64,000 nt of DNA from assembly GCA_022846075.1 (NCBI GenBank), contig AP025582.1:1116001-1180000 (forward strand). The letters are read 5' to 3'. A model generated the notes under the pieces. That model was given only the letters and a program-made list of their open reading frames with translations, was not told where the DNA came from and made no database searches. The stretch is from Oscillospiraceae bacterium (GTDB taxonomy: Bacteria; Bacillota; Clostridia; Oscillospirales; Oscillospiraceae). Both the position numbers and the translations under genes were made by a program. Within the stretch, counting starts at the first letter, position 1; each line of letters opens with the position of its first letter. This document shows, piece after piece, positions 12,143 to 42,464 of this stretch.

Positions 12143-12598
12143 TGGCGGGAGTGCCGACGGCAGGTTTTTTTCACGAGAGTGGAGACTGGGGACTCCTTGT
12201 CTGGATTCTTTTCCAGGGGCAGGACAAAGGCTTCCCCTGGGGGAAGCTGTCGAGCGCAGCGAGACTGATGAGGGGAACTTATCCCCACACGTCCCCGGCC
12301 AGCATAGCTGGCCGGCCACCGCTAAAAACTTGCCACTGGCAAGTTTTCTTCACGCTATGGCCCCTCATCCGTCAGCCCTTCGGGCTGCCACCTTCTACCC
12401 GCAGGGCATGAGCTGTCCGTAAGCGGCGCAGCCGCCAACGGACAGCCAACCCCGTGGGGAAGGCTAAGGGCGTGCGTAATAGAAGATGGACTCCCTTCAT
12501 TGATTTCGCTTTGCCCTTCAACTTCCACGGCTGCGTATCTATCTAGTGCCCCGTAGCTGACGTTAAGGGCCGCTGGCACCCAGGGGAAGGTCAAAAAG
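12143..12598. other. Intergenic stretch with a dispersed repeat
   Basis: No credible gene. Positions 12229-12465 are a member of a dispersed palindromic repeat family (separate entry). The remaining bases, 12143-12228 and 12466-12598, show no structure that I can name. Confidence 0.6.
12229..12465 (-). repeat. Dispersed terminal-inverted repeat, copy 1
   Basis: The ends read GGCTTCCCCTGGGGGAAGC and, inverted, GTGGGGAAGGCT. Inside are paired modules (GACTGATGAGGGG / CCCCTCATCCGTC), a hairpin GGCCAGCATAGCTGGCC, an AACTTGCCACTGGCAAGTT hairpin and CAGCCCTTCGGGCTG. It lies in inverse orientation to the copy at 40946-41176, with which it shares the central hairpins. A shorter copy is at 24444-24589. 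Confidence 0.8.
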
Positions 12599-14017
12599 TT
12601 ACTCCCTTGTGTATTTCGCGATTTTCCGCGCGGCGGTGGCCTGGGAGATCCCCAGCTCCCTCGCCACGGCCACGGTGGTCTTATTCCGGGCGTAGGAATC
12701 CAAAATGATCTGCCGCTCGTAGTCGTCCATCCGCCGGGAAAGGGGCCCGACGGCCCGGACAGCCTGGGGCCCGGCAGGGCCGGAGAGTTCAGGGGGCAGG
12801 TCGGTCAGGTCGACGATAGGGCCTTGGGCGGTGATAACCACCCGCTCCACCAGGTTTTCCAGCTCCCGGACGTTCCCCGGCCAGGGACAGCTCTCCAGGA
12901 AGCCCGGAAACCGGGGGGAAAAGCTCAGAGTCTTGCCGTACTCCTGGGAAAACCGGCTGAGGAATTGGTGGGCCAGGGGCAGGATGTCCTCGGTCCGCTC
13001 CCGGAGGGGCGGGATGTGCATACGGATGACGTTGAGCCGGTAGAAGAGGTCGGAGCGGAACAGGCCCTTGCGCACTTCCTCCTCCAAATCCCGGTTGGTG
13101 GCCACGATGAGGCGGAAGTCCAGCTCAATCTTCTTGGTGCTCGAGAGCCGCTCGATGGTCTTTTCCTGGATGAGCTGGAGGAGCTTGGACTGGATGTGGG
13201 TGGGCAGCTCGCCGATTTCGTCCAGGAAGAGGGTGCCGTGGTTGGCCAGCTCGATTTTGCCGATTTTCCCCGCCGAGGAGGCCCCGGTGAAGGCCCCCTT
13301 CTCGTAGCCGAAGAGCTCGGACTCGATGAGGTTTTCGTGGAGGACGGCGCAGTTGACCTCAATGAAGGGGCCGTCGGCCCGGCCGCTCATCTTGTGGATG
13401 GTCTTGGCCACGGCGGACTTGCCCACGCCGGTTTCCCCGGTGATGAGGATGTTGGCCTTGGTGTTGGCTGTATTCTGCATGAGGGTCCACAACCGCTGCA
13501 TAGCCGGGCTGCGGAAAACCAGCTTGCCCGTGGCGGTGGCCCGGGTGCGCAGCTCGGCCAGCTCGGCGGTGTACTGCTCCACCGATTCCTGGAGGTCGTG
13601 GTAGTTGCGCAGGATGGTGTTGATTTGCTCCATGGACACCGTGTTGAAGCACACGGCGTATTTCAGCGTCCCCCGGCTGTCGAAGAGTGGGATGCCCACC
13701 GTCATCACGTTCTTGTGGATGCGGTTGATGGTCTGGGTGGTGATGACCTTATTCCGCTCCCGGATGACCCTGGCGGTGATGCAGGGGGAGAAAGTGCCGT
13801 CGGCCTCCAGGTCGAAGGCGGACTTTCCCACAATGGAGCCGTGGGCGAAGCCAAAGTTCTGCTCGTAAGTCTCGGAGACCCGCAGGATGGTGCCGTCGGC
13901 GGCGGAGAGCATCATGTCGTCGGCCAGCACCAGGTTGTTCTCCGGGTTGATGATGTCGAACAGGCATTTCAGGTCGATATCGTCGGAAAAAATATCTGCT
14001 TTATTTTCTCTGCCCAA
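12599..14017 (-). CDS. PAS-domain sigma-54-dependent transcription activator
   Basis: A 472-residue enhancer-binding protein. Residues 25-130 form a PAS sensor (DDMMLSAADGTILRVSETYE, VGKSAFDLEADGTF), then a short coiled coil. Residues 175-400 are the AAA+ domain: ITGETGVGKSAVA (Walker A), ESELFGYEKGAFTGASS with the GAFTGA loop that contacts sigma-54, and GTLFLDEIGELP (Walker B). The last 45 residues are a Fis/TyrR-like HTH (TTVAVARELGISQATAARKI). I start it at TTG 14017, 8 bases after AGGGAGG; an ATG at 14065 would lie inside the palindromic promoter. It diverges from the acyl-CoA operon whose promoter is of sigma-54 type, so it is very likely that operon's activator. Confidence 0.93.
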   Translation of the reverse strand: MGRENKADIFSDDIDLKCLFDIINPENNLVLADDMMLSAADGTILRVSETYEQNFGFAHGSIVGKSAFDLEADGTFSPCITARVIRERNKVITTQTINRIHKNVMTVGIPLFDSRGTLKYAVCFNTVSMEQINTILRNYHDLQESVEQYTAELAELRTRATATGKLVFRSPAMQRLWTLMQNTANTKANILITGETGVGKSAVAKTIHKMSGRADGPFIEVNCAVLHENLIESELFGYEKGAFTGASSAGKIGKIELANHGTLFLDEIGELPTHIQSKLLQLIQEKTIERLSSTKKIELDFRLIVATNRDLEEEVRKGLFRSDLFYRLNVIRMHIPPLRERTEDILPLAHQFLSRFSQEYGKTLSFSPRFPGFLESCPWPGNVRELENLVERVVITAQGPIVDLTDLPPELSGPAGPQAVRAVGPLSRRMDDYERQIILDSYARNKTTVAVARELGISQATAARKIAKYTRE

Positions 14018-14028
14018 GGGGATGACCT

Positions 14029-14083
14029 CCCTCTTTCTATTCACTTTTGAGTATAGCATATTCAAAAGTGAATAGAAAGAGGG
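14029..14083. promoter_or_regulatory. Perfect 22-bp-arm palindrome, likely activator binding site
   Basis: Arms 14029-14050 and 14062-14083 are exact complements (core CTATTCACTTTTGA) around an 11-bp spacer. On the - strand the spacer holds TATACT (14050-14055), a possible -10 box for the regulator gene, so protein bound here could shut off the regulator. It lies 180-235 bases upstream of the sigma-54 promoter, a normal distance for an enhancer. Confidence 0.65.
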
Positions 14084-14318: not shown

Positions 14319-15095
14319 ATGTATCAAACCATCCATTATGAAAAGAAAGAGCACATCGGCATCCTCACCATCGACCGGCCCGAGGCGCTGAACGCCCTCA
14401 ACTCCACCGTCATCACCGAGCTGGAGCAGGTGATTGGCGAGGTGGAGGGGGACGGGACCCTGCTGGGGCTCATCCTCACCGGCGCGGGCCGGTCCTTCGT
14501 GGCCGGGGCGGATATCGGGGAGCAGCAGCCCTTGGACCTGGCCGGGGGCCGGAGGTGGGGCCAGCGAGGCAGCGCCCTCATGCGCCGCATCGAAAAGCTG
14601 GAGATGCCCACCATCGCCGCGGTGAACGGCTTCGCCCTGGGGGGCGGCTGCGAGCTGGCCCTGTCCTGTGACATCATCTTGGCCAGCGAGAAGGCCAAGT
14701 TCGGCCAGCCCGAGGTGGGCCTGGGCATCACCCCCGGCTTCTCCGGCACCCAGCGGCTGCCCCGCCGGGTGGGGACGGCCAAGGCCAAGGAGCTGATTTT
14801 CTCCGGCCGGATGGTGAAGGCCGACGAGGCCGAGCGGATGGGGCTCGTCAACGCCATCTGCGCCCCGGAGGAGCTGATGGACAAGGCCATGGAGATGGCC
14901 CAGTCCTTCGCCAGGAACGCCCCCATCGCCGTGAAGTACGCCAAGGCCTGCATCGACCGGGGGATGCAGATGGATATCGACGACGGCATCGCCCTGGAAA
15001 ACGAGCTCTTCGCCATGTGCTTCGCCACCGCCGACCAGAAGGAGGGCATGTTGGCCTTCCTGGAGAAGCGGGACGTGGCTTTTGAAAACAAATAA
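14319..15095 (+). CDS. crt: Enoyl-CoA hydratase (crotonase family)
   Basis: A 258-residue crotonase, the usual length. The oxyanion-hole and catalytic segments are intact: AGRSFVAGADIGE, NGFALGGGCELALSCD with the first catalytic Glu, and KFGQPEVGLGITPGFSGTQRL with the second. It should hydrate 2-enoyl-CoA to 3-hydroxyacyl-CoA or do the reverse; the chain length cannot be read from sequence. First gene of a five-gene operon (crotonase, CoA-transferase, dehydrogenase, etfB, etfA) behind a sigma-54 promoter. No thiolase or 3-hydroxyacyl-CoA dehydrogenase accompanies it, so the substrate probably enters as a 3-hydroxy- or unsaturated acid rather than from acetyl-CoA. Confidence 0.92.
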   Translation: MYQTIHYEKKEHIGILTIDRPEALNALNSTVITELEQVIGEVEGDGTLLGLILTGAGRSFVAGADIGEQQPLDLAGGRRWGQRGSALMRRIEKLEMPTIAAVNGFALGGGCELALSCDIILASEKAKFGQPEVGLGITPGFSGTQRLPRRVGTAKAKELIFSGRMVKADEAERMGLVNAICAPEELMDKAMEMAQSFARNAPIAVKYAKACIDRGMQMDIDDGIALENELFAMCFATADQKEGMLAFLEKRDVAFENK

Positions 15096-15107
15096 GGGGG
15101 CGGGGGC

Positions 15108-16664
15108 GTGAGAAAAGCGAACGTCATCACCGCCCGGGAGGCGGCCCTTCTCGTGAAGGACGGGGACACCATCTCCACCGGCGGCTTCGTCAGCTGCGCC
15201 TGCCCCGAGGGGCTGTCCAAGGCGCTGGAGGAGCGGTTTCTGGAGACCGGGCACCCCCGGGACCTGACCCTCTTCTTCGCCGCCGGGCAGGGCCACCGGG
15301 ACGGCACCGGCGGCGACCACTACGGCCACGAGGGCATGGTGAAGCGGGTCATCGGCGGCCACTGGGACCGGGCGCCCCGGCTGGGGGACCTGGCCCTGGC
15401 GGGGAAAATCGAGGCCTATAACCTACCCCAGGGGGTCATCTCCCACATGTACCGGGACATCGCCGCCCACAACCTGGGCACCTTCACCACTGTGGGACTC
15501 TACACCTTTGCCGACCCCCGCAACGGCGGCGGAAAGCTCAACGACGTGACCACCGAGGATTTGGTGAAGGTGGTCAGCGTGGAGGGGGAGGAGCTGCTCC
15601 TCTACAAGGCCTTCCCCATCGACGTGGTGTTCCTCCGGGCCAGCTACGCCGACGAGTACGGCAACTGCACCGTCCACCGGGAGATCGGCCCCCTGGACGT
15701 CACCGCCATGGCCCAGGCCTGCAAGAACTCCGGGGGCAGGGTCATCGTCCAGGTGGAGAAGATCGTCCAGGGGGGCACCCTGGACCCCAAGCTGGTGGCC
15801 ATCCCCGGCATCTACGTGGACTCCATTGTGGTGGGCAGCGCCGAGGAGAGCGATCAATGCCTGGGGATGCCCTACGACGGCGCCCTCACCGGCGAGTACC
15901 GCATCCCGGTGGACGCCATCCCGCCCATCCCTCTGGACGCCAAGAAGGTCATCGCCCGCCGGGCGGCCATGGAGCTGCCCCGGGACGCGGTGGTGAACCT
16001 GGGCACCGGGGTGCCCGAGAAAATCGCCAACGTCTGCGCCGAGGAGGGCATCTCGGACTACATGACCCTCACCGTGGAGGCCGGCTCGGTGGCCGGGGTG
16101 CCCATGGGAGGCACCCAGTTTGGGGCCGCCGCTAACGCCATGTGCATTATGCCCCACAACGTGCAGTTCGACTTCTACCAGGGCGGCGGGCTGGACATCG
16201 CCTTCCTGGGCCTGGCCGAGACCGCCCCCAACGGGGACCTGAACGTCTCCAAGTTCGGCACCCGGCTGGCCGGGGCCGGGGGCTTCATCGACATCACCCA
16301 GAACGCCAAGAAGGTCTGCTACTGCGGCACCTTCACCGCCAAGGGCCTGGAGGCCCTGTGCGAAAACGGCAGGCTGGTCATCGCCCGGGAGGGGAGCAAG
16401 AAGAAGTTCGTCCAGTCGGTGGAGCACATCACCTTCTCCGGCAAATACGCCGTGAAGGTGGGCCAGCCGGTCCTCTACATCACCGAGCGGGCGGTCTTCG
16501 AGCTGCGGCCGGAGGGGGTCACCCTTACGGAAATCGCCCCCGGCGTGGACCTCCAGACCCAGGTCCTGGACCAGATGGACTTCATGCCCAAGATCGCCAT
16601 GGACCTGAAGCTGATGGACAGCCGTATTTTCCAAGACGAGCCCATGGGGCTCGCCCAGCGCTGA
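15108..16664 (+). CDS. pct: Acyl-CoA:acetate/propionate CoA-transferase
   Basis: A 518-residue class I CoA-transferase with both halves fused, as in propionate CoA-transferase (Pct/YdiF type). N-terminal half: ITAREAALLVKDGDTISTGG and FFAAGQG. C-terminal half: NLGTGVPEKIA and TVEAGSVAGVPMGG, where the Glu is the nucleophile that forms the glutamyl-CoA intermediate. It moves CoA between acyl-CoA and a free acid such as acetate, activating the substrate without ATP or releasing the end product. Start GTG 15108, 12 bases after the crotonase. The exact acids used cannot be told from sequence. Confidence 0.9.
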   Translation: MRKANVITAREAALLVKDGDTISTGGFVSCACPEGLSKALEERFLETGHPRDLTLFFAAGQGHRDGTGGDHYGHEGMVKRVIGGHWDRAPRLGDLALAGKIEAYNLPQGVISHMYRDIAAHNLGTFTTVGLYTFADPRNGGGKLNDVTTEDLVKVVSVEGEELLLYKAFPIDVVFLRASYADEYGNCTVHREIGPLDVTAMAQACKNSGGRVIVQVEKIVQGGTLDPKLVAIPGIYVDSIVVGSAEESDQCLGMPYDGALTGEYRIPVDAIPPIPLDAKKVIARRAAMELPRDAVVNLGTGVPEKIANVCAEEGISDYMTLTVEAGSVAGVPMGGTQFGAAANAMCIMPHNVQFDFYQGGGLDIAFLGLAETAPNGDLNVSKFGTRLAGAGGFIDITQNAKKVCYCGTFTAKGLEALCENGRLVIAREGSKKKFVQSVEHITFSGKYAVKVGQPVLYITERAVFELRPEGVTLTEIAPGVDLQTQVLDQMDFMPKIAMDLKLMDSRIFQDEPMGLAQR

Positions 16665-16686
16665 TGAATAAATAGGAGGGAACCAA

Positions 16687-17823
16687 ATGGAATTCGAATT
16701 GACCCGTGAGCAGGAGCTGGTCCGCAAGATGATGCGGGAATTCACCGAGACCCAGGTGAAGCCCATCGCCGCCGAGACCGACAAGACCTCTACCTATCCC
16801 CGGGAGACCATCGAGAAGCTCTTCGACCTGGGCGTCATGGGGATGATCGTCCCCGAGGCGTACGGCGGGGCCGGGGCCGACGACCTGGCCGGGGCCATCG
16901 CCATCGAGGAGCTGTCCAAGCAGTGCGCCTCCACCGGCGACATCGTGGCCACCCACAACGGCCTGTGCTGCGGGCCTATCCTCCAGCACGGCACCGAGGA
17001 GCAGAAAAAAAAGTACCTGCCCATGCTCACCACCGGCCACCACGTGGGGGCCTTCGCCCTCACCGAGCCCAACGCCGGCTCCGACGCCTCCAAGGGCCAG
17101 ACTGAGGCCCGGCTGGAGGGGGACCACTGGGTGCTGAACGGCTCCAAGATCTTCATCACCAACGGCTACGTGGCCGACGTGTTCGTGGTCTTCGCCATGA
17201 CCGACAAGTCCAAGGGCACCAAGGGAATCTCCGCCTTCATCGTGGAGAGCTCCTACCCCGGCTTCTCCGTGGGCAAGCACGAGGAGAAGATGGGCCTCCA
17301 CGGCTCCCCCACGGCGGAGATCGTCTTCACCGACTGCGTCGTGCCCAAGGAAAACCTGCTGGGCCGGGAGGGCAAGGGCTTCTCCATCGCCATGCAGACC
17401 CTGGACGGGGGCCGCATCGGCATCGCCGCCCAGGCCCTGGGCATCGCCCAGGGGGCCATGGCGGAGGCCATGGACTTCACCAAGACCCGGGTCCAGTTCG
17501 GCAAGCCCATCGACAAGTTCCAGAACACCCAGTTCGTCTTTGCCGATATGTACATGGGCATCCAGGCGGGACAGCTTTTGACCTACAAGGCCGCCGCCTC
17601 CAAGATGGCGGGGAAGCGCTTCACCGTGGACGCCGCCTGCGCCAAGCTCTTCTGCTCGGAGCTGGCCATGAAGACCACCGTCAAGGCCCTCCAGATGTTC
17701 GGCGGCTACGGCTACACCAGGGATTACCCCATCGAACGGATGATGCGGGACGCCAAGATTACCGAAATCTACGAGGGGACCTCCGAAATCCAGCGGGTGG
17801 TCATCTCCGGCAACATTCTGTAA
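16687..17823 (+). CDS. Acyl-CoA dehydrogenase (butyryl-CoA dehydrogenase type)
   Basis: A 378-residue FAD enzyme of the short-chain acyl-CoA dehydrogenase family. Signatures are [67 protein letters not shown] and YEGTSEIQR, the last holding the catalytic Glu. With EtfB and EtfA encoded directly behind, it should act as an enoyl-CoA reductase in fermentation or an acyl-CoA oxidase in the other direction. A strong AGGAGGG site precedes ATG 16687. It is related to, but distinct from, the dehydrogenase domain of the fusion at 39030. Confidence 0.94.
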   Translation: MEFELTREQELVRKMMREFTETQVKPIAAETDKTSTYPRETIEKLFDLGVMGMIVPEAYGGAGADDLAGAIAIEELSKQCASTGDIVATHNGLCCGPILQHGTEEQKKKYLPMLTTGHHVGAFALTEPNAGSDASKGQTEARLEGDHWVLNGSKIFITNGYVADVFVVFAMTDKSKGTKGISAFIVESSYPGFSVGKHEEKMGLHGSPTAEIVFTDCVVPKENLLGREGKGFSIAMQTLDGGRIGIAAQALGIAQGAMAEAMDFTKTRVQFGKPIDKFQNTQFVFADMYMGIQAGQLLTYKAAASKMAGKRFTVDAACAKLFCSELAMKTTVKALQMFGGYGYTRDYPIERMMRDAKITEIYEGTSEIQRVVISGNIL

Positions 17824-17838
17824 GGGAGGAAGGAACTC

Positions 17839-18639
17839 ATGAAAATCATCGTCTGTGTCAAACAGGTCCCCGATACCTCCGGGAAGGTGGCCGTCAACCC
17901 CGACGGCACCCTGAACCGGGCGTCCATGCAGACCATCACCAACCCCGACGACCTGAACGCGGTGGAGGCCGCCCTGAAGCTCAAGGAGGAGACGGGGGCC
18001 ACGGTCACCGTGATTACCATGGGCCCGCCCCCCGCCGAGGGGATGCTCCGGGAGCTGCTGGCCATGGGTGCGGACGACGCGGTGCTGGTGTCCGCCCGGG
18101 AGTTCGGCGGGTCGGACACCTACGCCACCTCCCAAATCCTGGCCGCCGCCATCAAGCGTATCGGCCTGGGGGAGGACGGCGTGGTCCTGTGCGGCCGCCA
18201 GGCCATCGACGGCGACACCGCCCAGGTGGGGCCCCAAATCGCCGAGAAGCTGGGCCTGCCCCAGGTGACCTACGTGGCCGACATCCATAAAACCGGCAAT
18301 ACCTTCTCCTGCAAGCGGATGCTGGAGGACGGCTACATGACCGTGGAGGTGGACGCCCCCTGCCTCCTCACCTGCATCAAGGAGCTGAACGAGCCCCGGT
18401 ACATGTCCGTGAACGGCATCTATAAGGCCTATTCCAAGCCCCTGGCCGTCTTTGATTACGAGGCCCTCAAGGACGACGAACTGGTGGACCCGGCCACCAT
18501 CGGCCTCAAGGGCTCTCCCACCAACATCTTCAAGAGCTTCACCCCGCCCAAGAAGGGGGCGGGCACCATGCTGGCCGGCTCCGGGAAGGACGCCTGCGCC
18601 CTCTTGGCGGGCGCCCTGGCCGAGAAGCACTACATCTGA
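17839..18639 (+). CDS. etfB: Electron transfer flavoprotein, beta subunit
   Basis: A 266-residue EtfB. The start MKIIVCVKQVPDTS, the segment NPDDLNAVEAALKLKEE, TVITMGPPPAEGMLRE and GRQAIDGDTAQVGPQIAEKLGLP are family hallmarks and form the nucleotide site. In clostridia this subunit pairs with EtfA and the dehydrogenase and may bifurcate electrons from NADH to enoyl-CoA and ferredoxin; whether this copy bifurcates cannot be settled from sequence by eye. It starts 15 bases after the dehydrogenase. Confidence 0.95.
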   Translation: MKIIVCVKQVPDTSGKVAVNPDGTLNRASMQTITNPDDLNAVEAALKLKEETGATVTVITMGPPPAEGMLRELLAMGADDAVLVSAREFGGSDTYATSQILAAAIKRIGLGEDGVVLCGRQAIDGDTAQVGPQIAEKLGLPQVTYVADIHKTGNTFSCKRMLEDGYMTVEVDAPCLLTCIKELNEPRYMSVNGIYKAYSKPLAVFDYEALKDDELVDPATIGLKGSPTNIFKSFTPPKKGAGTMLAGSGKDACALLAGALAEKHYI

Positions 18640-18655
18640 GGGAGGAGAGAGGAAC

Positions 18656-19762
18656 ATGACGAATTTCGATAGCACGGCCATTGCCGAATTCAAGAATGTC
18701 TGGGTCTTCTGCGAGCAGCGGGAGGGCAAGCTGTCCTCCACCGCCCTGGAGCTGATTTCCGAGGGCCGCAAGCTGGCCGACGACCTGGGCGGGAAGCTCT
18801 GCGGCGTCCTGCTGGGCGAAAAGGTGGAGGCCTTGGCCGCCGAGCTGGGGGGCCACGGGGCCGACGAGGTGCTGGTGTGCGAGCACCCCCTCCTGAAGGA
18901 CTACACCACCGACGCCTACGCCAAGGTGCTCTGCGACGTGGTGGCCGAGGGCAGGCCCGAGGTGCTCCTTCTGGGCGCCACCAACATCGGCCGGGACCTG
19001 GGCCCCCGCTGCGCCGCCCGGCTCCACACCGGCCTGTGCGCCGACTGCACCCACCTGGACGTGGACGTGGCCAAGTACGTCTCCTACCTGCGGGAGAACT
19101 CCACCCTGGACGTGGACGGCACCGAGTGGGACATGGCCGACCGCAACCTCAAGATGACCCGGCCCGCCTTCGGCGGCCACCTGATGGCCTCCATCATCTG
19201 CCCCCGGTTCCGCCCCTGCATGGCCACCGTCCGCCCCGGCGTGATGAAGAAGGCCCCCTATGACCCGGCCAAGGCCCAGGCGGTGAAGGTCGTGAAGCCC
19301 GCCTTCTCCCTCTGCGAGGCCGACCTCCACACCCGGGTCACCGAGACCGTGAAGGCCGCCAAAAAGCTGGTGGACCTGATCGGGGCCGACTACGTGGTCT
19401 CCGTGGGCCGGGGCATCGCCAAGGACGTGGAGGGCGGCGTGAAGCTGGCCCAGGCCCTGGCCGAAGAGCTGGGCGGCGTGGTGGGCGGCTCCCGGGCCGC
19501 CATCGACTCCGGCTGGCTCTCCGCCGACCACCAGGTGGGACAGACGGGCAAGACCGTCCACCCCAAGGTGTACGTGGCCCTGGGCATCTCCGGGGCCATC
19601 CAGCACAAGGCGGGGATGCAGGACTCGGAGTGCATCGTGGCGGTGAACACCAACGCCGGCGCCCCCATCTTCGAGGTGGCGGACTACGGCATCACCGGCG
19701 ATTTGTTCCAGGTGGTGCCCGAGCTCATCGAGGCCATCCGGGCCGCGAAGGCCGCGAAGTAA
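18656..19762 (+). CDS. etfA: Electron transfer flavoprotein, alpha subunit
   Basis: A 368-residue EtfA with all three parts: a slightly extended N-terminus, domain I (LLGATNIGRDLGPRCAARLHTG) and the C-terminal FAD domain II ([52 protein letters not shown]). No ferredoxin-type cysteine cluster is fused to its N-terminus. ATG 18656 follows GGAGGAGAGAGG; the upstream frame lies in etfB. Last gene of the sigma-54 operon, before a strong terminator. Domain II is clearly homologous to the middle part of the fusion protein at 39030-40940. Confidence 0.95.
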   Translation: MTNFDSTAIAEFKNVWVFCEQREGKLSSTALELISEGRKLADDLGGKLCGVLLGEKVEALAAELGGHGADEVLVCEHPLLKDYTTDAYAKVLCDVVAEGRPEVLLLGATNIGRDLGPRCAARLHTGLCADCTHLDVDVAKYVSYLRENSTLDVDGTEWDMADRNLKMTRPAFGGHLMASIICPRFRPCMATVRPGVMKKAPYDPAKAQAVKVVKPAFSLCEADLHTRVTETVKAAKKLVDLIGADYVVSVGRGIAKDVEGGVKLAQALAEELGGVVGGSRAAIDSGWLSADHQVGQTGKTVHPKVYVALGISGAIQHKAGMQDSECIVAVNTNAGAPIFEVADYGITGDLFQVVPELIEAIRAAKAAK

Positions 19763-24443: not shown

Positions 24444-24589
24444 CTTAGCCTTCCCCTTGGGGGAAGGTGGCAGCCCGAAGGGCTGACGGATGAGGGGAAC
24501 TGGGGAAAACACGAAAGGCTCTGCTAGAGGGATAAGTTCCCCTCATCAGTCTCGCTACGCTCACCAGCTTCCCCCAGGGGAAGCCTAAG
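24444..24589 (+). repeat. Dispersed terminal-inverted repeat, copy 2 (short)
   Basis: Ends CTTAGCCTTCCCC and GGGGAAGCCTAAG are inverted copies of each other. It carries the same GGTGGCAGCCCGAAGGGCTG and TTCCCCTCATCAGTC modules as the copies at 12229-12465 and 40946-41176, but lacks their two central hairpins. Confidence 0.8.
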
Positions 24590-38490: not shown

Positions 38491-38494
38491 ATAC

Positions 38495-38523
38495 TTGACA
38501 ATACTTGTCCATATTGATAGGAT
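38495..38523 (+). promoter_or_regulatory. Promoter of rrf2 with overlapping palindrome
   Basis: TTGACA (38495-38500), 17-bp spacer, TAGGAT (38518-38523). A palindrome GACAA-TAC-TTGTC (38497-38509) covers the -35 box. The word TACTTGACAAT (38492-38502) recurs inverted at 38997-39007 before the fusion gene. Confidence 0.7.
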
Positions 38524-38553: not shown

Positions 38554-38961
38554 CTGCTGATCACCAGAGAGACCGACTACGCCCTGCGCATCCTGCGGGC
38601 CCTGTCGAATGGGGAACAGCTCACCGCCCGGGACATCTGCCGGGCCGAGGGGGTCCCCCAGCAGTTTTCCTATAAGATCCTGAAGAAGCTGGAGAAGGCG
38701 GGCTTCGTCCAGATCAGCCGGGGGGTCGAGGGGGGCTGCCGCCTCCGAAAGGAGCTGGCCCAGGCTACTCTCTACGACCTCATGGAGGCCATGGGGGAAG
38801 ATACTCTGGTCATCTCCTGCATGGAGCCGGACTTTCAATGCACCCGTCCCCAGGACAGCCCCCGCTGCGCTGCCCATCACCGGCTGAAAGCCATTCAGGA
38901 GGCGCTGGATGGGGAGTTGAGATCCCATACCCTCCAGGAGTTGATTTTTGGCCCATCCTGA
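38554..38961 (+). CDS. Rrf2-family redox regulator with CTG start
   Basis: A 135-residue Rrf2 protein that reads (M)LITRETDYALRILRALS, then an HTH (TARDICRAEGVPQQFSYKIL) and the wing GVEGGCRL. The C-terminal half has CMEPDFQC and PRCAAHH, three Cys plus His in the position where IscR/NsrR-type members bind an Fe-S cluster. No ATG, GTG or TTG is available between the upstream stop at 38536 and the conserved N-terminus; CTG 38554 (or CTG 38557, 8 bases from GGGGGAG) must be used. It has its own promoter and directly precedes the dehydrogenase-ETF-rubredoxin gene, which it probably controls. Confidence 0.88.
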   Translation: MLITRETDYALRILRALSNGEQLTARDICRAEGVPQQFSYKILKKLEKAGFVQISRGVEGGCRLRKELAQATLYDLMEAMGEDTLVISCMEPDFQCTRPQDSPRCAAHHRLKAIQEALDGELRSHTLQELIFGPS

Positions 38962-38996
38962 CAGGGATTGTTTTTTTACATATAAATTGGATAAAA

Positions 38997-39007
38997 ATTG
39001 TCAAGTA
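38997..39007 (-). promoter_or_regulatory. Candidate Rrf2 binding site before the fusion gene
   Basis: ATTGTCAAGTA here is the exact reverse complement of TACTTGACAAT in the rrf2 promoter (38492-38502). It lies just downstream of a possible promoter (TTGTTT around 38968 and GATAAA around 38990), so bound protein would block transcription. Confidence 0.5.
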
Positions 39008-39029
39008 ACGATGAAAGGGAGGCACCGGT

Positions 39030-40940
39030 ATGTTGTTCCAAACCACACAAGCCCACGAGGAATTGAGACAGAAGGTCCGCGCGTTCGCGGAGTCGGAGGT
39101 GAAGCCCATCGCCTTCACCCTGGATCAGAACAACGATTTCCCCGATGAGGCGGTAAAAAAGATGGGGGAGATGGGCCTGATGGGCCTGCCCTACCCCAAG
39201 GAGTACGGCGGCGCGGGGCTGGACGTGCTGAGCTACGCCATCGCCGTGGAGGAGTTGTCCCGGGTAGACGGCGGCACTGGCGTCATCCTCTCGGCCCACA
39301 CCAGCCTGGGCACCTGGCCCATCTTCGCCTTCGGCAATGAGGCCCAGAAGAAAAAGTATCTGGTCCCCCTGTGCAGGGGCGAAAAGCTGGGGGCCTTCGG
39401 CCTCACCGAGCCCAACGCCGGCTCCGACGCCGGCGGCACCGAGACTACCGCCGTGCTGAAGGGCGACCACTACGTCCTGAACGGCGGGAAAATCTTCATC
39501 ACCAACGCCCCCAAGGCGGACACCTACGTGGTCTTCGCCGTCACCACCCCCGACATCGGCACCCGGGGCATCTCCGCCTTTATCGTGGAGAAGGGCTGGA
39601 AGGGTTTCGAGTTCGGCGACCACTACGACAAAATGGGCATCCGCTCCTCCTCCACCGCCGAGCTGATCTTCAACGACGTTATCGTCCCCAAGGAAAACCT
39701 CCTGGGCAAGGAGGGCGAGGGCTTCAAGATTGCCATGGCCACCCTGGACGGCGGCCGCATCGGCATCGCCTCCCAGGCCCTTGGCATCGCCCAGGGGGCC
39801 TACGAGGCCGCCGTGGACTACGCCAAGGAGCGGGTCCAGTTCGGCAAGCCCATCGGCTTCCAGCAGGCCATCGGCTTCAAGCTGGCCGACATGGCCACCA
39901 AGCTGCGCTGCGCCCGCCTCCTCGTGTATTCCGCCGCAGACTTGAAGGAAGCCCACGCGCCCTACGGCATGGAGTCCGCCATGGCCAAGCAGTACGCCTC
40001 CGACATTGCCCTGGAGGTCACCAACGACGCCCTCCAGATTTTCGGCGGCACCGGCTATCTCAAGGGCATGGACGTGGAGCGGATGTACCGGGACGCCAAA
40101 ATCACCACCATCTACGAGGGCACCAACGAGATCCAGCGGGTGGTCATCGCCTCCCACATCATGGGCAAGCCCCCCAAGAGTGAGGGCGGTTCCTCCAGCC
40201 GGCCCAAGAAGCCCGCCCCCATCACCGGCGTGCGGAAAAAGCACATCCTCAAGGAGGGAGATGCCGCCGAGAAGGTGGCGGAGCTGGTGGCCCACCTGGA
40301 AAAGGACGGCCACGACTTCACCGTGGGCATCCCCGCCGACACGCCCATCATCCAGGCCGAGCGGGTGGTCTCCGCAGGCAAGGGCATCGGCGACAAGAAA
40401 AACATGAAGCTCATCGAGGACCTGGCCAAGGCCGCCGGCGCCGCCATCGGCTCCTCCCGCCCCGTGGCCGAGACCCTGAAATATGTGCCCCTGAACCGCT
40501 ACGTGGGCATGTCCGGCCAGAAGTTCAACGGCAACCTGTACATCGCCTGCGGCATCTCCGGCGCCATCCAGCATTTGAAGGGTATCAAGGACGCTTCCAC
40601 CATTGTGGCCATCAACAAGAATGCAAATGCCCCGATCTTCAAAAACTGTGACTACGGCATCGTGGGAGATGTCAACGAGATCCTGCCCCTCCTTACCAAG
40701 GCCCTGGACCGGGGGGAGAAGCAGCCCGCGCCCCCCATGGTGAAGATGAAGCGGCCCCAGCCTCCCAAGCCCGAGCCCCTGGGCAAGCGCTACGTCTGCG
40801 GCGGCTGCGGCTACGAGTACATCCCCGAGCTGGGGGACGAGGATGCCGAGATTGCCCCGGGTACCCTTTTCGAGAAGCTTCCCGAGGACTGGGTCTGCCC
40901 CGAGTGCGCCGAGGGCAAAGACATGTTCATCGAGGCGTAA
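39030..40940 (+). CDS. Acyl-CoA dehydrogenase - ETF alpha FAD domain - rubredoxin fusion
   Basis: A 636-residue three-part flavo-iron protein. Residues 1-380 are a complete acyl-CoA dehydrogenase ([44 protein letters not shown] with the catalytic Glu). After a Ser/Pro/Lys linker, residues 402-575 match EtfA domain II, the FAD-binding part ([49 protein letters not shown]); EtfA domain I is missing. Residues 588-636 are a rubredoxin ([10 protein letters not shown] and [14 protein letters not shown], four Cys for iron). Electrons could pass from acyl-CoA through two FADs to the iron within one chain. The next gene encodes a flavodiiron protein, a known rubredoxin partner. A GGGAGG site precedes ATG 39030. 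Confidence 0.93.
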
Positions 40941-40945
40941 AGAAA

Positions 40946-41176
40946 TAAGCCTTCCCCTCGGGGGAAGGTGGCAGCCCGAAGGGCTGACGGATGAGGGACC
41001 ATAGCGTTAAGAAAACTTGCCGGCGGCAAGTTTTTAGCGGTGGCCGGCCAGCTGTGCTGGCCGGAGACGTGTGAAGAGAAGGTTCCCCTCATCAGTCCGC
41101 TGTGCTCGACAGCTGAAGGTGAATTGTCCCAAAGGGACAAGAGAGGCCACCCTGGGGCGTCCCCCAGGGGAAGCCA
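40946..41176 (+). repeat. Dispersed terminal-inverted repeat, copy 3
   Basis: Ends AAGCCTTCCCCTCGGGGG and CCCCCAGGGGAAGCC are inverted. It carries GGTGGCAGCCCGAAGGGCTG, the AACTTGCCGGCGGCAAGTT hairpin, GGCCGGCCAGC hairpin and CCCCTCATCAGTCC, the same modules as copy 1 at 12229-12465 in the opposite orientation. It also has TTGTCCCAAAGGGACAA. It fills the whole gap between the fusion gene and the flavodiiron gene. Confidence 0.82.
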
Positions 41177-41195
41177 AATAAGGAGGTATGAATTT

Positions 41196-42410
41196 ATGTA
41201 TTGCGTGCGTAACGTCACAGAGGACCTCTACTGGGTAGGTGCCAACGACCATAGGCTGCACCTGTTCGAGAATATCCATCCCATTCCCCGGGGGGTCAGC
41301 TACAACGCCTATCTTCTCCTGGACGAAAAGACCGTCCTCTTTGATACCGTGGACTGGTCGGCCTGCCGCCAGCTCTTGGAAAACATCGAGTACCTGCTGG
41401 CCGGGCGGCCCCTGGACTACTTGGTCATCAACCACATGGAGCCCGACCACGGCGCGTCCATCGAGGAGATCCTGATCCGCTACCCCGGCGTGAAGATCAT
41501 CTCCACCGAAAAGGCCTTCATGCTCATGCACCAGTTTGGCTTCGACGTGGACGGCCACGAGTGCGTCGAGGTGAAGGAGGGGGACACCCAGACCTTCGGC
41601 AAGCACACCGTCACCTTTGTGGCCGCCCCCATGGTCCACTGGCCCGAGGCCATGGTCACCTTCGACGTCACCAACGGCGTCCTGTTCTCCGCCGACGCCT
41701 TCGGCTCTTTCGGCGCCCTGGACGGCAAGCTCTTTGCCGACGAGGTGAACTTCGACCGGGACTGGATCGACGACGCCCGGCGCTACTATACCAACATCGT
41801 GGGCAAGTACGGCCCCCACGTCATGCATCTGCTGAAAAAGGCGGGCACCATCGACATCAAGATGCTCTGCCCCCTCCACGGCCCCGTGTGGAGGGAGAAC
41901 ATCCCCTACCTGCTGGACAAATATATCCACTGGGCCACCTACGAGCCCGAGGAGAAGGGCGTCCTCATCACTTACGCCTCCATGTACGGAAATACGGAGG
42001 CCGCCGCCCAGGCCCTTGCCTCCAAGCTCTGTGAGCGGGGGGTCACCAACGTCTGGGTCTACGACGTGTCCAACACCCACGTTTCCTACCTGATTTCCGA
42101 GACCTTCCGCCTGAGCCATGTGGTGCTGGCCAGTGTGACCTACAACCTGGGCATCTACCCCGTGATGCACGACTACCTGATGCACATGAAGGCCCTGAAC
42201 CTGCAGAACCGGACCTGCGCCATTGTGGAGAACGGCTCCTGGGCCTGCAAATCCGGGGATCTGATGCAGAAGTTCCTGGACGAGGAGATGAAGGGCATGA
42301 CCGTTCTCAACGAGCGGCTTTCCCTGGCCTCCGCCCTCAACGACGGCAAGGCCGCCGAGCTGGACGCCCTGGCCGACGCCATCGTGGAGTCCATGGAGCC
42401 CCAGGACTGA
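41196..42410 (+). CDS. Flavodiiron protein (FprA-type O2/NO reductase)
   Basis: A 404-residue two-domain flavodiiron protein. The metallo-beta-lactamase-like half holds the di-iron ligands: H80, E82, D84 and H85 in NHMEPDHGAS, then His in PMVHWPEAM, Asp in SADAFGSFG and His in CPLHGPVWR. The C-terminal flavodoxin half binds FMN (ITYASMYGNTEAAAQ, VLASVTYNLGIYPVMHDYL, VENGSWACKSG). Class A proteins like this take electrons from rubredoxin and reduce O2 to water or NO to N2O, protecting anaerobes. It has no rubredoxin domain of its own, but the gene before it encodes one. ATG 41196 follows AGGAGG by 9 bases. Confidence 0.95.
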   Translation: MYCVRNVTEDLYWVGANDHRLHLFENIHPIPRGVSYNAYLLLDEKTVLFDTVDWSACRQLLENIEYLLAGRPLDYLVINHMEPDHGASIEEILIRYPGVKIISTEKAFMLMHQFGFDVDGHECVEVKEGDTQTFGKHTVTFVAAPMVHWPEAMVTFDVTNGVLFSADAFGSFGALDGKLFADEVNFDRDWIDDARRYYTNIVGKYGPHVMHLLKKAGTIDIKMLCPLHGPVWRENIPYLLDKYIHWATYEPEEKGVLITYASMYGNTEAAAQALASKLCERGVTNVWVYDVSNTHVSYLISETFRLSHVVLASVTYNLGIYPVMHDYLMHMKALNLQNRTCAIVENGSWACKSGDLMQKFLDEEMKGMTVLNERLSLASALNDGKAAELDALADAIVESMEPQD

Positions 42411-42417
42411 TCGGAAA

Positions 42418-42464
42418 ACAAAAAACCCGGGCGGCCGCCATTATGGCGGCCGCCCGGGTTTTTT
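42418..42464. terminator. Terminator after the flavodiiron gene
   Basis: AAAAACCCGGGCGGCCGCCA paired with its complement around TTA, then T6. It also faces the convergent FUSC gene. Confidence 0.93.

Follow-up and report, generated by a model that had tools for sequence, protein, structure and literature searches.

The closest described counterpart of the system studied here is the butyryl-CoA oxygen oxidoreductase (BOOR) of Fusobacterium nucleatum, encoded by loci FN1423-FN1424 (PMC12630350). According to a 2025 review (PMC12288474), which cites Bystrom & Wolthers 2024 (Biochemistry 63:2352), a bicistronic unit encodes a flavodiiron protein (FDP) and BCR, a fusion of butyryl-CoA dehydrogenase, the EtfA C-terminus and rubredoxin, and the two proteins form an alpha4beta4 complex that couples butyryl-CoA oxidation to the reduction of O2 to water. 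In gut Clostridia, the Rrf2-family protein C0FN14 of Roseburia inulinivorans, which has three cysteines and Asp8, adjoins BOOR; neighbourhoods of this type, Oscillospiraceae included, contain BCR in 123 of 149 cases and FDP in 115 of 149 (PMC13404960, a July 2026 preprint, main text). We analyzed a 64,000-nucleotide stretch of an Oscillospiraceae genome (contig AP025582.1; hereafter the window), part of a 3.23-Mb single-contig genome, and found three genes in the order Rrf2 regulator, 636-aa fusion and FDP, all on the plus strand (38554-42410). The locus is very probably a clostridial copy of BOOR, that is, a BCR fusion plus FDP, with Rrf2 as a likely Fe-S repressor of its own operon. The genes, their residues, the conserved neighbourhood and two operator-like sites confined to the operon were observed directly. 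Both the enzyme route and the Rrf2-BCR-FDP trio are already in print; the present work adds a predicted operator pair and a hint of a second mode of regulation.

Like the F. nucleatum enzyme as described in PMC12288474, the window system combines a three-domain fusion with an adjacent FDP devoid of rubredoxin. Pfam searches placed Acyl-CoA_dh_N/M/1 at residues 6-377 of the fusion, ETF_alpha at 440-520 and Rubredoxin at 587-633, and NCBIfam EtfA models extend the match to residue 561. Residue E363 (in YEGTNE) and the rubredoxin cysteines C590, C593, C623 and C626 are kept in all 38 aligned fusions, 37 of these rows being hand-picked out of 80 loci. We take E363 to be the catalytic glutamate of Bcd, and the residue roles in the fusion and the FDP are those that we assume for their families. 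A search of the 404 residues of the FDP found no rubredoxin domain, and its di-iron residues (H80, E82, D84, H85, H148, D167 and H228) are kept in 16 of 16 aligned FDPs. Domain searches and cofactor residues thus bear out the gene content proposed in the first-pass annotation, namely an Rrf2 protein, a dehydrogenase/EtfA-FAD/rubredoxin fusion and an FDP without a rubredoxin of its own.

Among solved structures, the dehydrogenase domain is best matched by butyryl-CoA dehydrogenase of C. difficile (5ol2_C), with 62% identity in the structural alignment, and none of the best 60 of 204 matches covers the whole fusion. The AlphaFold model of the fusion has a mean pLDDT of 81 and a pTM of 0.60, with low-confidence stretches at residues 127-137, 341-345, 383-398, 479-482 and 576-582, and the 50 Foldseek matches listed for it are all acyl-CoA dehydrogenases, the best again being 5ol2_C. 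This model confirms the dehydrogenase domain only, and the predicted domain arrangement was not used as evidence. In its dehydrogenase and EtfA FAD domains the fusion resembles the bifurcating Bcd-EtfAB of C. difficile (PDB 5ol2), but it differs from that complex in having neither EtfB nor the EtfA N-terminal domain and in the added rubredoxin. The bifurcating FAD lies with EtfB; therefore, the fusion has no place for it. The NADH-driven FDP systems (the multidomain FDP of C. difficile, the flavorubredoxins) share the FDP core and the rubredoxin donor described for FDP classes in PMC12288474, whereas in the window system acyl-CoA would be the donor and rubredoxin is carried by the dehydrogenase.

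A scan of species genomes gave at least 578 stretches encoding a relative of the fusion, plain dehydrogenases possibly included, of which the best 80 were kept. Each of these aligns with the fusion over most of its length or the whole of it, at 76-89% identity; Agathobaculum, Enterenecus, Butyricicoccus and Flavonifractor (87-89%) are among the closest named relatives. The fusion is followed by a same-strand FDP gene in 76 of the 80 loci, with a gap of 14-587 bp (at most 60 bp in 63 of the 76, more than 500 bp in L072, L073 and L077); in the other four (L029, L051, L083 and L086) the contig ends 0-177 bases past the fusion. An rrf2 gene lies close upstream in 32 of the 80. Among 150 genomes of the own family, a query with the rubredoxin end was matched in 100, mostly in short frames. 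Thirteen further family loci with the fusion, a set without the window's own locus and without G018 (at a contig end), G118 and two weaker long frames, G036 and G123, all have an adjoining FDP gene, and four have rrf2 close upstream, one of them divergent. FDP is the constant partner of the fusion and Rrf2 a frequent one. The first-pass annotation had suggested a survey of genomes for co-occurrence, in which a fusion usually distant from FDP genes would speak against its reading; the survey does not give this outcome, and the proximity of Rrf2 is common, not general.

In Fusobacterium gastrosuis (L080) the fusion is 77% identical over residues 1-636 and the adjacent FDP 72% identical, and the EtfA-rubredoxin part is 70-72% identical in three of three examined genomes of the genus (that of L080 included), in open frames of 638-654 aa. 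Identity and gene order argue for orthology to the Fusobacterium enzyme, the copy compared being that of F. gastrosuis and not that of F. nucleatum. The two loci differ in that rrf2 and two palindromes directly precede the enzyme genes in the window, whereas in F. gastrosuis a distant Rrf2 gene ends 487 bp upstream and palindromes are absent; in addition, a 251-bp repeat separates the BOOR genes of the window genome. The distant F. gastrosuis relative (L080:5095-5514) is 28% identical to the window protein, with Glu at position 8 and the third cysteine unaligned.

Table 1. Features of the BOOR locus in window coordinates, with the relatives' loci that carry an alternative box.
Feature	Position	Strand	Details
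Predicted operator 1, CTTGACAATACTTGTCCAT	38494..38512	.	overlaps rrf2 -35 hexamer; matrix score 13.9 (site within training set)
Predicted sigma-A type promoter	38495..38523	+	TTGACA, 17-bp spacer, TAGGAT
Rrf2-family regulator, 135 aa	38554..38961	+	likely CTG start; Pfam PF02082, E=1.1e-25
Predicted operator 2, TTGGATAAAAATTGTCAAG	38987..39005	.	between rrf2 and fusion gene; score 14.8, matrix from rrf2 promoters only
BCR fusion, 636 aa	39030..40940	+	acyl-CoA dehydrogenase 1-378; EtfA FAD domain about 400-561; rubredoxin 587-633
Structured intergenic repeat stretch	40945..41195	+	251 bp separating fusion and FDP genes
Class-A-type FDP, 404 aa	41196..42410	+	ODP 35-229, Flavodoxin_1 258-366
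Hairpin and T run, intrinsic-terminator-like	42425..42464	+	after FDP gene, read by eye in sequence
Fur/PerR-like box in relatives	L012, L021, L022, L049, L050, L054, L102, L106, L107, L111		upstream of fusion

The window Rrf2 scores above the TIGR00738 rrf2_super cut-off (80.7 against 73.3) and falls outside the NsrR and IscR equivalogs (41.7 of 182 bits and 37.7 of 207.55, respectively). It carries C89, C96, C105, D8 and H108; both candidates for a fourth ligand, Asp8 of the NsrR type and His108 of the IscR type, are therefore present, and Asp8 is described as a cluster ligand of NsrR (PMC13404960). C89 and C96 are kept in 22 of 22 aligned Rrf2 rows, and C105 and D8 in 21 of 22, the exception being the distant Fusobacterium row. 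D8 is found in all 21 clostridial rows and H108 in 19 (N in L026, R in L069). Of the Cys3-His cluster that had been proposed for this protein, the three cysteines thus hold, and the histidine, present here, is less constant than Asp8. With its three cysteines and Asp8 beside BCR and FDP, the window Rrf2 matches the C0FN14 neighbourhood as described in PMC13404960. No in-frame ATG, GTG or TTG occurs from the upstream stop to the conserved N-terminus of Rrf2. The CTG at 38554-38556, which aligns with the mostly ATG or TTG starts of the relatives' rrf2 genes and recurs at the same position in L078, L084, L033 and L019, is the likely start codon.

A 19-bp palindrome, CTKGACAAAWTTTRTCMAG, is common to the rrf2 upstream regions, and its 5' half usually holds the -35 hexamer TTGACA; TTGAC with a -10-like hexamer (at least 4 of 6 positions) at 17 bp occurs in 29 of 31 of these regions. 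The GAC-N7-GTC spacing presumably resembles that of the IscR type-1 site. The two predicted operators of the window lie 493 bp apart and are the sole sites scoring at least 8 in its 64 kb. The 17-base pattern TKGAYAANNNTTRTCMA is matched exactly at two places in the 3.23-Mb genome, both at this operon, and with one mismatch at two places elsewhere.

The symmetric matrix used for scoring was trained only on rrf2 upstream regions, and the count of sites upstream of rrf2 (28 of 31 at first) is circular in this respect. A second site above the 99% shuffle level was found in 20 of 29 gaps between rrf2 and BCR; among 46 rrf2-less BCR genes, 4 pass when single-base shuffles set the level and 6 when dinucleotide shuffles do. 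At a fixed cut of 9, the figures are 19 of 29 gaps and 3 of 46 rrf2-less genes, and 0.2% of dinucleotide shuffles pass. Not among these are L045, with a seemingly empty upstream region, L058, with a misplaced start, and L080, with its distant Rrf2; the gap counts also omit L043 and L051 (gap below 30 bases), and the rrf2-less set omits L056 (no upstream sequence). For L032, about 40 bases upstream were available, and L043, in which the open frame runs into the fusion, is not part of a count of 30 of 77. When rescored over a longer stretch, L045 and L058 have the upstream site, L058 also has the gap site and L080 has neither; with these three added, the counts become 30 of 34 upstream of rrf2 and 21 of 32 in the gap. 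The 80 loci and the window together span 987,665 bases, in which 47 sites reach a score of 11 or more: 28 upstream of rrf2, 16 in the rrf2-fusion gap, 2 upstream of rrf2-less fusions and 1 elsewhere.

Loci collected later are less independent than their number suggests. Among the family loci, a site scoring at least 7 is present in three of four with rrf2 and in one of nine without it (L101). Of the loci with rrf2, L100 has two sites, L112 one and L099 none, and L110, with 96% identity to L043 over 8.4 kb, nearly repeats that locus. In 291 genomes of the class we identified 24 Rrf2 relatives, of which only those of the window and L119 adjoin BCR and have a site scoring at least 8 within about 1.5 kb. 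L119 is identical over 3384 bases to L063, a training-set locus; therefore, the class sample adds only the 22 relatives that are not beside BCR, all without a site within about 1.5 kb. A strict operator pattern, run against 295 genomes of the order, gave one match (L115) that lies within an ORF, with no BCR or Rrf2 gene within 3 kb, and is probably due to chance; this pattern also misses the window's own sites and is too strict as a regulon test.

Based on these sites, Rrf2 likely blocks its own promoter, while the second site probably serves as a roadblock or a loop partner. As an Fe-S repressor, Rrf2 would bind the palindrome at the rrf2 promoter and the copy before the fusion gene and repress the operon, and O2 or NO would detach it from DNA by damaging the cluster. 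The main text of PMC13404960 mentions no operator, binding site, motif, palindrome or promoter, and relative to that text the operator pair and the Fur/PerR-like alternative described below are proposed only here. The operator tentatively appears not to have been in print before, within a coverage that leaves outside most subscription papers and all supplements. Although small, the prediction makes the target of the regulator, and the genes outside its control, directly testable.

Several observations weigh against a BOOR operon controlled by its own Rrf2. No Rrf2 gene lies close upstream in 48 of the 80 loci, among which L010 and L056 have fewer than 300 bases upstream and L080 has the distant relative described above. 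The loci are related, the upstream regions of L014/L018, L062/L063 and L043/L051 being 85-95% alike. Because operator 1 contains the -35 hexamer, its conservation is partly the promoter's own. L099 has rrf2 and no site, and L101 has a site and no rrf2. On the enzyme side, the dehydrogenase domain scores best against the NCBIfam model of the acryloyl-CoA reductase AcrC, but with 492.9 against a cut-off of 640, and therefore the acyl-CoA substrate is not fixed by sequence. The 251-bp repeat gap could weaken co-transcription of the fusion and FDP genes. Finally, the RnfC_N cut-off is passed by two proteins of the own genome, but RnfC_N also matches 9 of 14 control genomes, Bacillus subtilis included, and therefore it is no proof of an Rnf complex.

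The overlap of operator 1 with TTGACA, the prediction of both operators from sequence and the discordant loci L099 and L101 leave some room for the alternative in which the palindromes are bound by a different regulator, or are mere promoter sequence, and Rrf2 acts elsewhere. We consider this a minority possibility, although the best of the alternatives. The second site stands apart from the rrf2 promoter and was recovered by a matrix trained on the first (20 of 29 gaps), and the sites track an adjacent rrf2 gene, with 4 to 6 of 46 BCR genes passing where rrf2 is missing. Moreover, the 22 class relatives of Rrf2 away from BCR are siteless, and the pattern has its two exact matches in the genome at this operon.

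As to the enzyme itself, we propose that a short-chain acyl-CoA, most likely butyryl-CoA, would be oxidized by the dehydrogenase domain; the electrons would move first to the EtfA-domain FAD, next to the fused rubredoxin and then to the FMN and di-iron site of the FDP, which would reduce O2 to water. The order of these steps and the activity of the clostridial copy are assumed by analogy with the orthologue. Because butyryl-CoA is a weak reductant, O2 would be removed without a cost in NADH, and the crotonyl-CoA product could again take electrons from Bcd-Etf. The route from acyl-CoA to O2 without EtfB or NADH, as laid out in the first-pass annotation, fits the F. nucleatum orthologue, and the accompanying remark that no test of it was known is outdated by the characterization of that enzyme (PMC12288474, citing Bystrom & Wolthers 2024). 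A fermentative, probably gut-dwelling lineage would thus carry an enzyme that burns O2 with butyryl-CoA, and exposure to O2 would divert carbon from butyrate, a consequence already drawn in PMC12288474 and PMC13404960.

The same machine might use another short acyl-CoA, such as propionyl-CoA or a branched one, as its physiological donor. The AcrC model is the top NCBIfam hit, although below its cut-off, and 20 kb away the EtfB and EtfA encoded in the window run 14319-19762 exceed the cut-offs for electron-transfer subunits of acryloyl-CoA reductase (486.2 against 475 and 673.7 against 600). However, among solved structures the butyryl-CoA dehydrogenase of C. difficile comes closest, and several of the named relatives of the fusion are, we presume, butyrate producers. 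The fusion is also 77% identical to that of F. gastrosuis, and the corresponding F. nucleatum enzyme acts on butyryl-CoA (PMC12288474); a different donor appears unlikely.

It is more doubtful still that the pair is mainly an NO reductase, with an NsrR-like Rrf2 as the NO sensor and an FDP that consumes NO at the expense of acyl-CoA electrons. Such a role could be read from the three cysteines and Asp8 shared with NsrR (for Asp8, PMC13404960) and from the best structure and NCBIfam matches of the FDP, which are NO-reducing flavorubredoxins. However, the FDP scores well below the flavorubredoxin cut-off (210.9 of 635), and PMC12288474 reports that the F. nucleatum BCR-FDP complex has no NO reductase activity. 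Of the two substrates, O2 or NO, originally suggested for the window FDP, O2 is thus upheld by the F. nucleatum enzyme and NO is not; the likely substrate is O2. Anaerobes often run acyl-CoA dehydrogenases as enoyl-CoA reductases, and a rubredoxin-like frame stands apart in the genome at C1:1900080, but a reverse flow, in which rubredoxin reduced by another donor feeds the dehydrogenase for enoyl-CoA reduction beside an incidental FDP, is scarcely credible given the direction reported for F. nucleatum (PMC12288474) and the FDP gene that adjoins the fusion in 76 of 80 loci of the species scan and 13 of 13 of the family set.

Returning to the regulation of BOOR, we identified a Fur-box-like stretch (at least 14 of 19 bases) within 250 bases upstream of 10 of 55 BCR genes that lack an adjacent rrf2 (Table 1), for example GATAATGATTCTCATTACT in L106. 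At this threshold, no such box occurs in 31 rrf2 promoters or in 29 rrf2-BCR gaps, and 0.5% of single-base shuffles pass. The box was first spotted by eye, the threshold was chosen afterwards, and the consensus used for scoring is one that we assumed for Fur. The remaining 45 of the 55 genes have no such box. The Fur/PerR-like box as an alternative regulation of BOOR is a lead, not a result. It can be speculated, with about an even chance of being right, that clostridial BOOR is run by exchangeable redox switches. Here it would form a self-contained module, with a dedicated Rrf2 that acts on no operon but its own. Of its two copies of CTKGACAAAWTTTRTCMAG, one would block the promoter and the other, ahead of the enzyme genes, would act as a roadblock or loop. 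In relatives in which rrf2 was lost or never present, a Fur/PerR-like box upstream of the same enzyme would stand in for Rrf2. If so, the oxygen reductase of an anaerobe would switch between two kinds of sensor, one built on an Fe-S cluster and the other metal-based. The operator and box predictions also offer a way to tell Rrf2-run from Fur/PerR-run BOOR copies in genomes.

The intergenic repeat between the fusion and FDP genes has 66 matches to its parts, itself included, in the own genome (123 candidates, 40 scored). Its 28-base core occurs in three copies in the window, the others being at 12362-12389 and 24469-24496, and the stretch 40945-41180 has a fold z-score of -6.3. It is possibly a REP/MITE-like element, and FDP may be expressed at a lower level than the fusion because of it. 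No RNA family was found in the window at the Rfam gathering score.

The metabolic context of the own genome includes a bcd-etfB-etfA-like locus at C1:2596-2599 kb, together with five other matches to acyl-CoA dehydrogenase (one with an internal stop) and five to EtfA. The window run 14319-19762 encodes an enoyl-CoA hydratase, a CoA transferase-like protein, an acyl-CoA dehydrogenase, EtfB and EtfA; for the second of these FadX is the best model, although its cut-off is not reached. Crotonyl-CoA from BOOR might be used here by Bcd-Etf and Rnf, as in the scheme of PMC12288474. A gene that by eye resembles one for a sigma-54-type activator lies beside this run, at 12599-14065 on the minus strand.

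A second FDP is encoded in the own genome at C1:165539-166747 (L090, L113); it is 67% identical to the first, and no fusion domain, Rrf2 match or palindrome was found within 11 kb around it. Two genomes that also have BOOR encode flavorubredoxin-like proteins (L103 and L105), in frames of 463 and 474 aa that consist of a distant FDP (about 30%) and a rubredoxin 58-61% like that of BCR. The rubredoxin end (60 aa) of the window fusion is 97% identical to that of G074, from another genus of the family, and 66% to that of G014, from the own genus (L102 versus L097). The other domains differ less between G074 and G014 (87 versus 84% for the dehydrogenase, 86 versus 83% for EtfA), and the G014 copy is also without an adjacent rrf2. 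Uneven inheritance or exchange of the rubredoxin end of the fusion is a possible explanation.

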